DNA from: Xestospongia bergquistia
Lineage: Eukaryota; Porifera; Demospongiae; Haplosclerida; Petrosiidae
Direction: 5' to 3'
DNA: 64,000 nucleotides
NCBI GenBank assembly: GCA_963965975.1
Contig: OZ014424.1
Location: forward strand, 3,534,001 to 3,598,000
Shown here piece after piece: positions 1,248 through 10,050 of the stretch. The notes under the pieces were generated by a model. The model made no database searches. It was not told the DNA's origin and saw nothing but the letters and a program-made list of their open reading frames with translations. The position numbers and the translations under genes are program-made. The first letter of the stretch is position 1; the number at the start of each line of letters is the position of its first letter.

Positions 1248-1627
1248 CTTCCACACCTCAATAATGATCAGAAAGACTTATGTATTAAAGGAGTAGGTGA
1301 ACGCGGACAAACCCAAGTCTCCTTCTTGTATAAGTAATTTTTGTTTTATCCATTATTATTATTATTGATTGATCTATTTATAATAGTCTTGTAATCTAAA
1401 TATATTGTCTACAGCCAAAAACTATGGGTATTTTTATCAAGTAATGAGCAAACCATAAATGTCATACAATTAAACTTTATTATCTGAAAACAGGTTGTTG
1501 TTCAGAAAATCAGTTGAATAGGTGTGGCCATGATTATTCACTAACACATATAGGTAGGTAATGTACATTATAATAAAGTAATAAAGTAAAGCCTGTTAAA
1601 GGTTCAAAGACAACTAACAACATTATG
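1248..1627. other. Non-coding spacer
   Basis: AT-rich sequence after the ankyrin gene with short ATT and TAA runs. I see no convincing coding potential, RNA gene or repeat. Confidence 0.5.
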
Positions 1628-1632
1628 CAAGG

Positions 1633-2139
1633 CAGGGTTTCATTTAGAAAAATGGACAAGGGGGGGGCAAAATAATACTTCGAGAAAATTTAGGGGGGCG
1701 AAGGGACTGTGCGAGACAGCACGTCCTCTAGGGTGGTCTGGAGGCATGTCCCCAGAAAATTTCTGAATTTTAGACCCTCTGAGATCGCTTCTGGCACATT
1801 TTCAGACCATTTGTGGTTTTCAAACGACATGATAAGATGACCATATTTCTGGTGGTGATAAGACACTTAACACCTATAAACCAAGTTACAATGGTGCTGA
1901 TAAGGCATTTAGGAGTAATTTAACACCCATAGACTATTGGTGTTTAGGTTAAAAAATATACATACTCCTTGTGTTTAGCCTAAGGTTATCTTATGCTGCA
2001 TATTCCTTGTGTTAAGTTTCAGTTCTGTATCCATTACATCCAATTATCCCTTGAAAAAAAATGGCTAACTTAATTTCCAAGGGGAGCAAGACTCTAGCAA
2101 GGAGGGGGGCAAATGCCCCCCCCCCTAAATGAAACCCTG
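1633..2139. mobile_element. MITE-1, non-autonomous DNA transposon
   Basis: The ends are inverted repeats: CAGGGTTTCATTTAG on the left and its exact complement CTAAATGAAACCCTG on the right. Just inside lie a G-run (left) and C-run (right) that extend the pairing. CAAGG stands directly outside both ends (1628-1632 and 2140-2144), a 5-bp target duplication. The 507-bp interior has no long reading frame. The CAGGG start resembles hAT ends, but a 5-bp duplication does not fit hAT (8 bp), so the superfamily is left open. Confidence 0.8.
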
Positions 2140-2424
2140 CAAGGATATATGGTAACATGTACTCAGTTTTTCAGGTGGTCAATTAAAAGTTTCATTCAAT
2201 GACATTCAAGAGTTTGGTTCATTTAGTTTAGATTATCACATGTAGAACAATACCAAGTCCCTCTCGGTTTTCTCTTAAGATTACCACATTCAAAATGCCA
2301 CCAGCCAATTGAGCAATTTGCATTGTCACAATAAATCATTCTGCCAAACTGCCCCTGCATGCAAATGCAGTACTTTTCTTCATCAAATATTATTGCAAGT
2401 AAGCAATATATGTGTTATATATAC

Positions 2425-3347
2425 CTATTGGGGACTCAACAATGGTTGTCTTTTGAAATTCAGAATGTTTCTGAAACTGAGAATGTGTCAGAGACTAGTA
2501 CTAGAGGCTAGATTATCATAATTATAAATAATATAAACAATAACAGACAAACTGATCTATTGAAGACTTGTTGCCTTTTGAGACTGAGAACGTGTCTGAG
2601 ACTGAGTACCAGAAGCTAGATTATAACAATGAATAATGTAGAAGATAACTGGACAATCTGACCTTTTGGAGACTTGACAGTGGTAGCCTTTTGAGACTGA
2701 GAATATGTCTGTGACATAGTACTGGAGGCTGAATTAATATACCAATGAATAATACAGGTGATAACAAACAAACTGACCTATTGGAGACTTGACAGTGTTT
2801 GTCTTTTGAGACTGAGAACGTGTCCCTAACATAGTACAAGAGGCTAGATTATTATAACAATGAATTATATAGAAGATAAAAGACAAACTGACCTATTGGA
2901 GACTTGACAGTGGTTGCCTTTTGAGACCAAGAGCGTGTCCGAGATTTGAGTACTAGAGGGTAGATTATTATAACAATGAATAATATAGAAGAAAACAAAC
3001 AAACTGACTTATTGGAGACTTGACTGAGGTTGCCTTTTGAGACTGAGAACATGTCTGAGACTGAGTATCATAGGCTAGATTATCATACCAATGAATAATA
3101 TAGAAGAAAACAGACAAACTGACTTATTGGAGACTTGACAATAGAGGTTGCCTTTTGAGACTGAGAATGTGTCTAAGACTGAGTATCATAGGCTAGATTA
3201 TCATACCAATGAATAATATAGAAAAAAACAGACAAAGTGACTTATTGGAGACTTGACAGAGGTTGACTGAGAATGTGTCTGACCTTGAGTACTAGAGGCT
3301 AGATTTTTGTAACAATGAATAATATAGAAGATAACAGACAAACTAAC
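2425..3347 (-). repeat. Tandem array of about 115-bp units, candidate duplicated micro-exons
   Basis: Nine units start (plus-strand coordinates) at 2425, 2557, 2663, 2778, 2893, 3009, 3124, 3242 and 3348; spacing is 106-132 bp, mostly 115-116. On the minus strand each unit is an AT-rich stretch ending in AG, then a block of about 66 nt, then GTCAGT or a close variant. The block reads S/T/Q-rich with the core SQSQKATTVKSP. Units at 2663, 2778 and 3009 are open 66-nt blocks; the unit at 3242 is open with 57 nt; the unit at 2893 stays in phase only by using a downstream AG (60 nt). The unit at 3124 (69 nt) has a TAG, and the two at 2425 and 2557 are out of phase. It may be only a minisatellite that looks like exons. 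Confidence 0.75.
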
Positions 3348-3919
3348 CTATTGAAGACTTGGAGATACCTGCAGCACCTGATATGGTATATAAACTGTTC
3401 TCTAGTTCTTCAGGCATTGTAAACAATGAGCAACCTATTTGCAGTATAATATAACAGCACCTTCATTGATACTGGTTGGAAAAGTGCTAGACTTAAGATG
3501 AAATTATGCAAATAACTACCTTCAGTGGGATTGTTTGATGTAGATTGAGAACTGCTAATAGCGCCTGAACCAGTACAGGACTTTTTACAGCAAGAACCTT
3601 CTATAACAATATTGAGGAATCAAAATTTAACAGCGTTAATTCTCACTTTTTTAACTTAGCTTGATCTAATCAAAGTAAGAATGTGTAAGTTGTGGTATCT
3701 ATATATATATATATATACTTTTTTTCTTTTCTTCCTTCTCTCTCATTTCTTCTAATTTCCTTTTCTTTTTTTCTTCAATTGCCATACGATTCTCTGCACT
3801 TGTTAAGACTTTTCCAGACTTCTTTTGTGGTATAACTGGAAGATTACAAAAGGGTAATGCTAAAATCTTTGAAAAAATGGACGACTTTAATGTATGATTT
3901 CTCCACAACTGCAAGTCTG
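2425..3919 (-). CDS. Candidate multi-exon gene with serine/glutamine-rich micro-exon tail
   Basis: Model, minus strand, 5' to 3': exon about 3919-3719 (lysine/glutamate-rich end, RKLEEMREKEEKKK), 3600-3520 (81 nt, cysteine/serine-rich), 3434-3348 (87 nt), then the micro-exons of the tandem array. Each internal exon has an AG before it and GT after it, and a length divisible by three. Each starts with the last two bases of a codon and ends with the first base of one; the 3719 exon ends at the same phase. The first exon resembles the charged tail of pogo/jerky-type DDE transposases (GKVLTSAE), so the gene may derive from one; that is from memory. No start codon is found: the leftmost open frame begins at a TTG after an AG. 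The 3' end decays. Unknown function. Confidence 0.45.
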
Positions 3920-4510
3920 ATAAAGTTTTATAGTTATTTTGTCATACTTGAGAACACTACCAATAACTTTAGCACTTGAATCATGTATATCTCAAATAAG
4001 AAAGAAGGCATCAATAATATGTAAGTTAATTAGCCTCAACTCTATCAGATGGCTATTTTAGTTTTCCTTTAAAGTAATGGGAACACTAGTCATAGTTAAT
4101 TACAGAAAATGTTTCTTTTGAATTATGGTAAGGTAAAGAGTATGAATATAGTAGCATCTTTAATATGGATGCAAGAGAGATAGGAAAATGTCCAAGGTGT
4201 CTTATGTCATGTTTTATGCTGTGAAGACAATGAACATCCAAATAGCTGTTTTGGAAAAAAATGTTAATTTTAATTGTTACTCCACCAATTTGAGACGTCA
4301 AGGTGATAATCATACATCAGTACAATTATACTTGAACCAATTACTCAAGTCACTATAATGCAGTAGTATCATACTTTGTCCAAGTTGAGAAGAACCCTTC
4401 ATCAAAAAAAGGTGTTTTATGCATGGTATTTCCTTTCCTATTAAATGCATTCATTATTTGTTCATTTACATGTCATGCGAACAGACCATGTTTCTCTCAT
4501 GTTCGTGAAG
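3920..4510. other. Spacer, nothing recognised
   Basis: AT-rich DNA between the minus-strand exon array and the DDE-like gene. Reading frames here are short and show no recognisable motif. Confidence 0.5.
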
Positions 4511-4859: not shown

Positions 4860-4965
4860 GTTATGACCCCAGATCAACGCTGTTATCGCTAAAGCAACAA
4901 TTGGACAAACAAAATGTTCTATTGACAGACTAGATGCAAACAATTAGTTCGTTTGGAAATTCCAG

Positions 4966-6001
4966 ATGAAACATCTCCTGCTGGCTAATGGTCTTTGGGG
5001 CCTAGTAGACGAAACAGAGGTACTCAGGCATGGAGCGACACCTCAAGAAGCTGAATACAACAAAAGGGCGGGAGAAAAGCGTTCTCAACAATTGTACTCG
5101 CTATCAACCCGTCTCAACTTTACCTTATTACTTCATGATAGACTGAAGCCAGCATGGGATGCTTTGTGTAACCATTTTGNNNNNNNNNNNNNNNNNNNNN
5201 NNNNNNNNNNNNNNNNNNNNNNNNNNNNNNNNNNNNNNNNNNNNNNNNNNNNNNNNNNNNNNNNNNNNNNNNNNNNNNNNNNNNNNNNNNNNNNNNNNNN
5301 NNNNNNNNNNNNNNNNNNNNNNNNNNNNNNNNNNNNNNNNNNNNNNNNNNNNNNNNNNNNNNNNNNNNNNNNNNNNNNNACTGTTAGAAGAGTCCAACAG
5401 CCCGGTAACTGTGTGGGAAAAACTCGCCAATCAGTTTCAGAAAAAGACATGGGCGAATAAGCTCATTCTGAGATGTAAACTCTACGCGCTAAGACTTAAA
5501 GACGAGACTCTGTCCATGAAACACATCAAGGCTATGACAGATCTTTAACGAGCTATCAGTCATTGGAGTCAAGGATGGGAGGAAGATCGTGTCGTACACT
5601 TACTTGTGAGTCTTGCTGACTCATACAACACACTTGTTACAGCACTCGAAGTCAGGCCTGAAGTTCCGAAGATGGACGTCGTTACAGAGAAGCTATACTA
5701 TGAAGAGAGGAAGCTAAAGGACCATGACAAGAATGAAGAAGCACTGGCAGCTAAACATAGATTTGGCTCGAGAGGTCCAAGGTGTCATTACTGTTGTAAG
5801 TTTGGTCACATACAACGGTACTGTACTGAACGAGCTCGAAGCGAGAAGATACCAGAAGGAACTGAAGTAAAAAAAGAGAAGAAGACCATGAAACAGAGAG
5901 CTCATAAGGTGCAGACCAGAAGAGGTGACTGCAAAACAATTGGTCTGGTAACATGTCATGTGTTATCAATTAACACCTCAAACGAGCCTGCAGACGCCTG
6001 A
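4966..6001 (+). pseudogene. Copia-A gag polyprotein region
   Basis: Gag-like sequence begins before the assembly gap (NGLWGLVDETE) and continues after it in a second frame (VWEKLANQFQKK). It ends with a zinc knuckle of form CX2CX4HX4C (CHYCCKFGHIQRYC, about 5793-5833), which in this family binds the RNA genome. A stop at 5546-5548 breaks the region and a TGA near 5999 stands just before the protease. The 200-N gap removes part of the coding sequence, so its phase across the gap cannot be judged. Confidence 0.8.
5180..5379. other. Assembly gap, 200 N
   Basis: Exactly 200 N, the look of a scaffold gap of nominal size. Any reading frame crossing it is unreliable. Confidence 0.99.
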
Positions 6002-7910
6002 ATAATTGACTCAGGAGCCACTTGTCACATCTGCAACAACAGACAGCTGTTTGCTAATTATAAGAGACTAAAGAAACCGCAAAAAGTCTCCCTAGGAGAT
6101 AGCCATATACTTGAAGCTACTGGTGGTGGTGTTGTTGCCTTGACTCTGGAGTTACCTGACAAACAGATAAGGAAGCGTAGACTACACGAGGTACTTTATG
6201 TACCAAAGTTGGCATACAACCTGCTAAGCGTATCTAAGATGACTGATGTTGGGAAACACATCACATTCAGTGACAATGAAGGTCATATGTATGATGAGAA
6301 AGAGGAGCTAGTAGCTGTTGCTACGAAGAAGGGTAACATTTATTATCTGAAATGTCTTCAGTCAACTCATCAACAAGTCAATGCTATTTGGAAAAAACAA
6401 CTCAAATCCAAAGAGAGCATATGGCATAGACGATTTGGACACTTAGGAGAGAGGAGTTTACGTGAGTTAGCTAAAAATAAATTAATTGATGGTTTTGATT
6501 ATAATTTATCTAATGATATTGATTTTTGTGAGTCATGTCTTGTAGGAAAACTCCACAGAAGTCCGTTCTCCAAAAATGGACGTAAACAAGCTGACTTTGT
6601 TCTCGATCTCGTTCACAGCGACGTATGTGGAAAGCTAAGCACACAGTCGTTGGGTGGAGCTGAATATTTTCTCACCTTTATTGATGATCAATCACACTAC
6701 ACATGGGTGTACATTATGAAGCACAAGAGTGAAGTTCTCCAGAAGTTTGTTGAATGGAAAGCTCTTGTTGAGACATCATCTGGTCGCAAACTGAAAATTC
6801 TCTGAATGGATAATGGTGGAGAGTACTGCCCTAAAGCGTTTAAGCAATACTGTAAGAGAGAGGGAATTCGACATGAGTTTACAGTTCCAAAAACACCAGA
6901 ACAAAACGGTGTTGCCGAACGAATGAACCGAACGTTAGTTAAGACAGTTCGATCAATGCTTGATGTTGCCACAGAAATTTTGGGCTGAAGATCTCTCTAC
7001 AGCAGTTTACTTGAGAAACCGTAGTCCAACCAAGACAGTGACTGGAATGACTCCATTTGAAGTGTGGACAGGAAAAAAAACCAATGTAGATCACTTGCGT
7101 GCATTTGGATGCACTGCCTATGCTCATATTGCTAAAGATGAAAGAAAGAAACTTGACTCAAAAGCGACAAAATGTATTTTATTAGGTTATGGTAATGAAA
7201 CTAAAACTAAGGGATATCATTTGTATGATCTAATTCAGTCGAGATGTTCAGTTCAATGAGTCCACAAGAGGAAATGAGAAGGAGAAAATTGAAAACAAGG
7301 AGCAGCGGCTCATATTGTTAAACAACTCTCATGAAGAGGAACATGCTCTTGAGGAAGAAGAGATAGCAGCTGGTCAACCAGTAGAAGCAGAGGAAACTCA
7401 CAATGAACCTGCTGATGTAGTAGAATCAGAAACAGTCACACGTAGATTGACTAGAGAGACAACACAGCCTGATAGATATGGTATCTGGGTCAATGCTGCC
7501 ACAGCCCAGAACAAGGAACCAGTGACAGTAGCTGAGGCACTCAGTTGCTCTGAAAAGGAGCAATGGAGAAATGCAATGGAGCAAGAGATGAAATCTCTTT
7601 ATTCAAATGAAGTATGGGATCTTGTGGAGTTACCAAAGAGAAGACAAATTGTTGGTAACAAATGGGTTTTTAGAAAGAAACTCAAAGCTGATGGCTCTGT
7701 GGAGCGCTATAAATTTCGGCTCTTTGCTCAAGGTTTTTCTCAACGACAAGGTGTTGACTATGATGAAACCTTTAGTCCTGTAATAAGGTTTGAGTCACTA
7801 TGTACTCTAATTGCTTTAGCTACTCAGAAAGGTCTCAAATTGCACCAAATGGATGTCACTGCTGCATTTCTAAATGGACAATTAGAACAACAAGTCTACA
7901 TGAAACAACC
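6002..7910 (+). pseudogene. Copia-A protease, integrase and start of reverse transcriptase
   Basis: In order: aspartic protease with IIDSGATCHI right after a TGA; GAG-pre-integrase region with the HHCC finger (WHRRFGHLG ... CESCLVGK); integrase core with LVHSDVCG, MDNGGEYCP and the glutamate in NGVAERMNRT; spacer; then copia-type RT with NKWVFRKKLKADG and MDVTAAFLNGQLEQQVY. Defects: TGA in place of a sense codon at 6803-6805, a one-base frameshift near 6960 and another near 7240. The copia order (integrase before RT) is clear. At 7909-7914 the sequence switches inside RT to the integrase of a different copia element. Confidence 0.88.
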
Positions 7911-8038
7911 AGTGACGTGTGTGGACCAATGCCCACTGAGTCCTTAAGACAAAAGAGATATTTCGTGTCATTCATTGATGTCTATTCGAGATGTTGTCAA
8001 GTCTATTTTATGAGACACAAATCTGAAGTTTTACATAA
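7911..8038 (+). pseudogene. Copia-B integrase fragment, part 1
   Basis: From 7911 the reading becomes SDVCGPMPTESLRQKRY..., an integrase core clearly different from the Copia-A integrase. It is interrupted by Harbinger-A after a TAA target site (8036-8038) and resumes in frame after 10788. There is no LTR and no gag at its left edge: Copia-B starts abruptly inside integrase, joined to Copia-A RT at a short shared stretch (about AGTG). Confidence 0.8.
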
Positions 8039-8237: not shown

Positions 8238-10050
8238 AAATGGAGAAGAAATGGAGAACAGAAGATGTAAATCTTTTAATCACGTTGTACGAGGAGAGGA
8301 CAGTGTTATACAACACAAAGAGTAAAGACTATTTCAACAGAGATATGAGAAGCAAGGCACTTACAGAAATATCCCAAACTCTGGACACACCAGGTAGATA
8401 ATAACACACACACATAATAGTACATATATACATTACTATAGTCTCTATAAACATGTAGTGAAAGAAGTAGAAGAAATGGCGAAACTTGAGAACACAGTAT
8501 ACAAGAGAAAGAAGAAAGACGAAAAAAAGAAAAACTGGGACAGGAGTAGATGATGTGTATGTAACAAGATGGCTACATTATAAACAGCTAGAATTCTTGG
8601 AAGACTATGTTACACCAAAGAATACGCAATCAAACTTAGAGGTCAGTAAAATTATCATTAAATTAGATCATGTTGTTTTGCCATGACACACTTCCTGCAT
8701 CAGATATGAAGTATTGTACTAAATGTTCATGTACTTCTCTTGTACCTTGAGAGCTTCTATTACTCCCCCTACATTCAAGAGAGAGCATTCCTTGAGGCTG
8801 CTCCCCTTGTCTGCATTCTCCAAGAGTGATAGAATGTGTTGCGGAATTTTCACTATCAAGCTTCCAAGTTGAGCGTAAATCACCTTTGTAGATGTATTAG
8901 TGCAGAGAAAATTATGCAAGCTACAGCAAGCGATAACAATCTTTTCAACTTTGTCAGGAGACAAATTGATTGGTGCCATAAAAATCCTGAACCTGTTGGC
9001 TAGAATTCCGAAACTGTTTTCAACAATACGTCTTGCTTGGCTCAGGCGATAGTTGAAAATCCTTCTTTCATTTGTCAACCCTGCTTGTCCAAATGGTTTT
9101 TGTATGTATTGTTTCAATGAAAATGCATCATCAGCTGCCATCATGTATGGAATGGGTAATCCGCTTCCATCATCTAGAGGCTCTGGAGGAGGTATTTGGA
9201 GAGTATTGCTTTCCATTGCATTGAATAAAGAACAATTTTTAAATACACCGCCATCAGATATTCTATTGTTGCATCCGACATATATGTAAATAAACTTATA
9301 GTTGGCATCTACAACTGCTAGGAGAACAATGCTGAAAGTGTGTTTATAGTTAAAGTAGTAAGAACCACTCCCAGTGTGTGGTCTAATTACTATATGCTTT
9401 CCGTCCATTGATCCTATACAGTGGGGGAAATTCCACTGTTTCTCGAAATCATGGCAATATACTTCCATTCTATCTCTGTCCTAGGTACCTATGCAATGAA
9501 AAATAAAAAGCAATAAACAGCAATAGTACCTAGTAGACAGTTGTAATAGTCAATGAGTTGTTTCATCGTTATCTTTTTCATGCAGGCTCTTGATCAACAC
9601 AATATTGACGAAACAGAAGCATCAACCTTAGTAATGAAGATTATAAAAGTAATGCTGATGAAAGCATAATGTCAAATGAGGAACCAGATGCTGTTAGTGT
9701 GGTGTCAATAAAAAGGCCTACTACCCAAACAAAAAAAAGGATTTACTAAACGACAGAAAAGAGAGACTAGAGAAGAAAATCTTTTAGAGAAAGCTATTAC
9801 CATTATGGAGTCTACAAGCAACACATCAAAACCTATTCAAAAAGATGCTGATGATGTGTTTGGGGAATACGTAACTTATGAACTGAAAAACATCAAAGAC
9901 GAAGGTACGAAACAAAGAATTAAATTTCAGATACAATCCATCATATACTCTACTCATGCTGGTACTCAAATACCAATGATGCTTGGACCACATAATTATG
10001 CCATATACCCTAATGATACTGATATGTATGTAATTGAAGTGGACCACTAA
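8238..10050 (+). pseudogene. Harbinger-A MADF/BESS-like DNA-binding protein
   Basis: Exon 1 (8238-about 8398) starts at an ATG and encodes MEKKWRTEDVNLLITLYEE, the opening of a MADF/Myb-like domain. Exon 2 (about 8470-8641) continues it (VTRWLHYKQLEFLEDYV) and ends at GTCAGT. Exon 3 (about 9584-10050, after TTTCATGCAG) is acidic then ends in a BESS-like segment (DDVFGEYVTYELKNI). In Harbinger elements this protein partners the transposase in binding the ends. Frame changes inside exon 3 (near 9630 and 9745) suggest it is broken. Exon 3 lies between transposase exons of the opposite strand. Confidence 0.65.

Follow-up and report, generated by a model that had tools for sequence, protein, structure and literature searches.

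A tandem array of micro-exon-like units in a predicted pogo-like transposon gene of the sponge Xestospongia bergquistia

The window, by which we mean the whole stretch of 64,000 nt analysed here, contains an array of short exon-like blocks on its minus strand. Tandem Repeats Finder places this array at 2472–3361 with a period of 115 (also 231), 7.9 copies and 81% matches. The initial annotation had described the blocks as flanked by AG and GT, and on rereading the window we confirmed this observation: the array is present, with blocks of the same positions and lengths. The five blocks that it singled out for keeping their frame (at 2663, 2778, 2893, 3009 and 3242) have lengths divisible by three, are in phase 1 and are open. 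What that annotation missed is that the array appears to be part of a transposon gene with dozens of copies. A blastn search with the element at L009 (L009, L010 and similar labels denote array loci elsewhere in the genome) matches the window at 4369–4225, 4231–3893, 3888–2138 and 1632–1329. The window copy comprises the following features.

1329..4369, minus strand: fragmented remains of a family A pogo-like transposon (blastn with the L009 element)
3719..3888, minus strand: what remains of the transposase exon, its C-terminal part (alignment, and tblastn with the L009 transposase; the 3719 end is approximate)
3520..3600, minus strand: linker exon e2, 81 nt, phase 1-1 (comparison with L009)
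3348..3434, minus strand: e3 and e4, two linker exons joined through a deletion (comparison with other copies), 87 nt in total with an open frame, phase 1-1
3242..3298, minus strand: micro-exon-like unit 1, 57 nt
3124..3192, minus strand: micro-exon-like unit 2, 69 nt, stop in frame
3009..3074, minus strand: micro-exon-like unit 3, 66 nt
2893..2959, minus strand: unit 4, 67 nt, acceptor AC instead of AG
2778..2843, minus strand: unit 5, 66 nt
2663..2728, minus strand: unit 6, 66 nt
2557..2615, minus strand: unit 7, 59 nt, donor and frame lost
2425..2507, minus strand: final unit, longer than the others at 83 nt (84 nt in L009) and no longer in frame
2223..2377, minus strand: ING-type PHD finger exon with stop codon (similarity to ING PHDs)

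The decay suspected earlier is evident in this copy, where a stop, a lost acceptor, a lost donor and lost frames occur among the blocks; in unit 4, use of the AG just before 2952 would give a 60-nt block that is in frame. The transposase exon is mostly deleted, the GTAAGT donor of its remnant (3719–3888) is degraded, and a search with exact terminal-repeat words found neither transposon terminus in the window. We regard the window copy as a dead, internally deleted copy of the transposon. The exons upstream of the array do end in the same phase 1, as had been proposed, but the 87-nt exon among them turned out to be two exons fused by a deletion. The suggestion that the array encodes a C-terminal tail had to be dropped: the PHD exon at 2377–2223, whose acceptor GATGAAG/AA gives phase 1 (by eye), comes after the array.

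About 505 bp of foreign sequence (window 1633–2137) splits the remnant, and the element positions on either side of this insert overlap by 7 bp, like a target duplication. Ty1/copia-like frames adjoin the remnant at 4948–7947 on the plus strand, where the 200 bases at 5180–5379 are N. The minus-strand frame at 8719–9480 contains DDE_Tnp_4 (E 6e-31) and is presumably a Harbinger/PIF-like nuclease. Three 99-bp repeats at 728–1020 look ankyrin-like (33 aa; by eye).

As the initial annotation had advised, the unit was sought at other loci, and it recurs. Searching the genome with window positions 2425–3919 returned at least 82 matching places, and together with a single-unit search this gave at least 45 array loci, from which 20 stretches of 9.5–9.9 kb and five of 1.8–5.3 kb were analysed. 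Where both ends of a copy are present, its homology to other loci begins and ends at constant points. The ends (GAGTAAATTACACAAGAACGGAC...) are inverted relative to each other; all 10 of 10 copies have TA before GAGTAAATT at the 5' end, and six of eight have it after the 3' end, L009 being different and L020 altered (both ends judged by eye). The terminal inverted repeats (TIR) are 72–75% identical over 319–404 bp in L009, L016 and L018, and the eight copies with both ends, including L020 with its altered 3' end, measure 6,675 to 7,769 bp.

The array is preceded upstream by a transposase frame, which is 616 aa long in L009 and 666 aa long in L010. Pfam assigns to the L009 protein a DDE_1 domain (E 2e-20), HTH_psq (1.3e-8) and HTH_Tnp_Tc5 (1.3e-4; 22.3 bits at a cut-off of 22.2), and its second and third D are 35 residues apart (DD35D), which falls within the DD29-56D range given for pogo elements in the consulted text of PMC7386202. 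Thus a DDE_1-type transposase with HTH/CENPB-like domains occurs together with terminal inverted repeats and a TA target site and, judged by termini, domains and spacing, the array-bearing element is a pogo-like DNA transposon. According to the main text of two surveys, the pogo superfamily belongs to the IS630-Tc1-mariner DNA transposons (PMC7386202, PMC7325037). The present element resembles its members in combining a DDE_1 transposase, HTH_psq and HTH_Tnp_Tc5 with inverted termini and TA beside the ends. It differs in size (6.7–7.8 kb, against 1.2–5.2 kb reported there) and in its TIR of about 320–400 bp, compared with up to 40 bp in most families, although a type with very long TIR (392–856 bp) is known from insects (PMC7386202, PMC7325037). 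Unlike the elements described in these texts, it adds a C-terminal ING-type PHD finger, several introns and the micro-exon array; the words "PHD" and "intron" have no occurrence in the main text of either survey.

Stops interrupt the transposase in 19 of the 25 sequences with a match, and none of the copies checked closely is intact: L009 carries a stop in unit 7 and L010 one in e3 (by eye). The genome also contains pogo-like transposases at about 48% identity, for example at C10:3794083 and C1:1799385, with open frames of about 610–640 aa; these are absent among the array and PHD matches listed.

The predicted gene is best read in L009, where every exon boundary is in phase 1 (by eye and from the lengths).

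L009, ends 5833: transposase exon, donor GTAAGT
L009, 5958–6038: e2
L009, 6126–6176: e3, 51 nt
L009, 6219–6248: e4, 30 nt
L009, from 6298: 66-nt blocks
L009, ends 7185: last block, 84 nt
L009, from 7233: PHD exon

A search for exon e2 in 25 loci and the window detected it in 23 of these 26 sequences. The short e4 and the last unit share the 3' end and the phase of the repeat unit. Against the PDB, the PHD exon gives 20 matches, all of them ING proteins or yeast homologues by name, with E values from 8e-16 (ING4/YNG2 PHD) to 8e-11; it carries the Cys4-His-Cys3 pattern and matches ING PHD sequences, and the Pfam PHD model scores it at E 0.0039 and 17.6 bits, under the cut-off of 24. ING PHDs bind methylated H3K4. 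Among the matches listed, at 33 of 45 array loci a PHD follows on the same strand no more than 3.5 kb downstream, and 12 loci have no downstream PHD match; conversely, 33 of the 37 PHD matches listed (E 2.4e-14 or better) are preceded by an array. A probable host ING gene lies in L036 (Pfam ING, E 2e-24).

The number of complete units per locus ranges from 3 to 48, with L026, L027 and L031 holding 48, 44 and 42, respectively (the L031 array reaches the end of the analysed stretch). L009 and L010, which have 1,106 bp of left flank in common and are 98–99% identical outside the array, are taken as duplicates of one insertion. L009 contains 7 complete units and L010 contains 15, every one of the latter intact, and the additional units of L010 consist of unit types in repeated order. 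A tandem array that changes its unit number, as in this pair, is what defines a minisatellite. In L026, short intervals separate successive frameshifted units, as in a higher-order repeat.

The layout and phase of the blocks, as read from genomic sequence, also fit a micro-exon gene, which is characterized by consecutive short symmetric exons in its mature mRNA. For a quantitative description we used 314 complete units, 282 of them distinct, from 24 loci and the window; these units share common ancestry, so they are not independent. GT and AG are both kept in 241 of the 282 distinct units, and 234 have blocks of exactly 66 nt. Of 243 blocks with a length that keeps the frame, 219 are open in phase 1, compared with 10 and 52 in the other two frames. 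The spacers are 48 or 49 nt long (49 nt in 106 of 282 distinct spacers). Since introns of a host CCT gene measure about 47, 47, 49 and 51 nt, next to longer ones (by eye), this spacer length is normal for introns of this genome; small introns also occur in the sponge Amphimedon, according to the consulted part of PMC4432959.

From these data we consider it probable that the array consists of micro-exons of a pogo-like transposase gene, spliced between the transposase and the PHD finger. The main rival, which we judge rather unlikely yet well worth weighing, places the entire array within one intron of a transposase–PHD gene, where it would spread neutrally: the unit would have arisen by duplication of a once-real exon with its intron, so that splice sites and frame are inherited but unused. 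The initial annotation had argued that conserved phase and open frame speak against a plain minisatellite, but this argument does not decide the matter, because skipping of the whole array, from e3 to the PHD exon, also keeps phase 1. Spacers matching the size of real host introns, and the recurrence of the 3' end and phase of the unit in e4 and the last unit, count against unused splice sites.

Intact units, that is units with splice sites, frame and no stop, number 219 of 314 overall. In the 17 family A loci the proportion is 128 of 147, even though the blocks of distinct units inside one locus differ by 14–20%, a combination that speaks against the intronic reading. Intact units make up 46 of 99 in family B, 10 of 14 in L028 and 2 of 6 in the window. 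The many broken units of the giant arrays (intact: 33 of 48 in L026, 21 of 44 in L027, 15 of 42 in L031) are in line with an array free of constraint.

The distribution of breaks among insertions favors micro-exons. In the same 17 family A loci, which represent 13 insertions, 3 of 15 break variants (stop, frameshift or lost splice site) occur in more than one insertion, compared with 87 of 142 other substitution variants (Fisher P 0.004; the variants are not fully independent). The shared breaks are an AC acceptor (two insertions), an AT acceptor (two) and a stop in codon 5 (three: L016, L023, L024). For this contrast, as for the counts of indels and splice dinucleotides, L010 and L009, L011 and L016, L015 and L013, and L023 and L014 were each merged into one insertion; the contrast itself was confined to the 17 loci, apart from L026, L028, L032, the window and family B. 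Because breaks are shared less than other variants they tend to postdate the insertions, and thus look mostly younger than these, as is expected if the units stayed whole while the element was active. One-nucleotide deletions in the spacers are common to 11 and 9 insertions, and the blocks contain one shared frameshift, located in an A-run; shared indel types amount to 1 of 12 in blocks and 3 of 13 in spacers, although these are few events.

Other comparisons agree better with an array inside an intron. We detected no selection on the amino acid sequence of the block peptide when distinct variants were counted: exon variants shared by at least two loci occupy 40 of 131 nonsynonymous, 16 of 54 synonymous and 1 of 4 stop opportunities. 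In this test only L015 and L013, and L011 and L016, were merged, and L026 and the window were counted in family A. Outside CpG-like sites, blocks and spacers are equally variable (shared variants 43 of 159 and 37 of 132), and shared variants are no less frequent in the splice dinucleotides (4 of 12 possible changes) than in the whole spacer (40 of 147). Every such test is weakened by the stops in many transposase copies. A first count, in which 9 stops stood against an expectation of 46 and amino acid changes were in excess, had pointed to positive selection of the micro-exons, but this signal vanished with distinct variants since the first count had multiplied inherited ones. An apparently higher diversity of blocks than of spacers was rejected as well, being largely due to CpG-like sites.

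Two further readings do without splicing of the blocks. The unit could be translated straight through with its spacer, which would account for the 529-aa open frame of L026, where units of mostly 114 nt leave a long frame open across the spacers. However, in the 17 other family A loci 99 of 147 units measure 115 nt, which would shift the frame on read-through, and the 49-nt spacers cause the same difficulty; we consider this reading extremely improbable. Alternatively, the array could be a DNA repeat kept for transposase binding, with its exon-like appearance being incidental. Two diverged unit-like stretches just 5' of the transposase exon, bordered by AG and GT (L010, 3557–3737), would suit such a role. 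Yet coding exons flank the array, whose distance to the nearer end is about 1.2 kb in L009, and binding leaves the layout of splice sites and phase unexplained, so that this reading, too, seems very unlikely. Similar matches to the diverged 5' units occur in further loci of family A where this region is present, the first of them in L010 has an in-frame stop (by eye), and they may be 5' UTR exons. In L028 the array stands near the 5' unit-like region with no transposase between them (by eye), as if the 5' and 3' units had recombined. We considered L028 as a third family and rejected this idea because of the similarity between its flank and the 5' part of family A (by eye); L028 was kept outside the A and B tests.

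Family B consists of L025, L027, L029, L030 and, by its upstream transposase match, L031. Its transposase is far diverged from that of L009, with a synonymous difference of 0.72 (L025, 390 codons), and transposase dN/dS is about 0.26 over 102 distant pairs. Between the families, the synonymous difference is 0.05 in e2 (28 codons) and 0.00 in the PHD exon (48 codons). The linker exons and PHD differ by 7–8%, the tail introns by 7–19% and the 3' flank by 15%; the last micro-exon, with 15%, differs as much as non-coding sequence, which counts against the micro-exon reading. The stretch shared by both families begins in family B at TGCAG/AGAATC, which lies in the interior of an exon in family A and resembles a 3' splice site in family B, again in phase 1 (by eye). 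This start point suggests a direction from A to B, and we conclude that the data suggest a recent move of the tail from family A to the far-diverged family B. We rejected the alternative that family B loci are mere nested insertions of family A, because at 14 of 21 B-type transposase loci among the matches listed (at least 58% identity, pieces of one copy merged by eye) the array follows downstream with the order unchanged; the seven without array are C1:20695513, C7:3849020, C8:2946154, C1:20356411, C4:3619231, C5:3449614 and C14:2143755.

Transposon, gene order, the pattern of splice sites and frame, and the change in unit number are observed features, and on these we base the following model for the micro-exon gene. 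Its transcript would lead from the DDE transposase through three short phase-1 exons into a run of phase-1 micro-exons of 66 nt, with introns of 48/49 nt between them, and on to the ING-type PHD. Since each unit is symmetric and comprises exon plus intron, gain, loss or skipping of units would change the length of the linker without breaking the frame, and a minisatellite-like repeat could thereby be tolerated within a coding gene. The resulting linker, rich in serine, threonine and arginine and variable in length, probably tethers the catalytic part to the PHD finger, which by its similarity to ING would read histone H3. We infer splicing, translation and the PHD target alike; that the array blocks are spliced appears likely, though well short of certain. 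The earlier interpretation as a gene growing by micro-exon duplication is partly supported by these results. More tentatively, we propose an "exon minisatellite": a recombining micro-exon array that would vary the length and sequence of a linker from the core to a histone-reading PHD finger, in a tail that as a whole would be an exchangeable module, moved between transposase families by way of a cryptic 3' splice site that lay within an exon of the donor. We regard this combined proposal as plausible, with somewhat more speaking for doubt than for confidence.

Parts of this arrangement have counterparts in other systems. A PHD is also present in RAG2, which belongs to a transposon-derived recombinase; here, the PHD shares a predicted gene with a pogo-like transposase. 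ING proteins likewise have an ING-type PHD at the C-terminus, but the N-terminal ING domain is absent from the 616-aa transposase frame (L009, Pfam). The exons of schistosome micro-exon genes show frame-keeping symmetry and are not known to be copies of one unit. Like the present array, these genes contain a run of many short exons, but, as described in the consulted part of PMC10526429, they form a host gene family for secreted proteins with introns of up to 5 kb. The array has a single repeated unit within a transposon and introns of 48/49 nt. Tandem exon duplications also produce head-to-tail copies of exon plus intron; in the account of PMC9013439, as far as consulted, they are found in eukaryotic genes and tied to mutually exclusive choice, whereas here 3 to 48 complete units per locus occur within a transposon. 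The titles and starts of abstracts listed from the open-licence PMC literature on pogo or transposase with PHD, and on micro-exons or tandem exons with transposons, contain no description of such an element.

If splicing takes place as predicted, the array illustrates how a coding gene can accommodate a minisatellite, by packing an exon with a short intron in one phase, such that gain, loss or skipping of units is harmless to the frame. Splicing would also make the 3 to 48 units found in this one genome a natural test of how the distance between core and chromatin reader affects transposase activity or targeting. Finally, the exchange of the tail between diverged transposases would represent a datable module swap among transposons.
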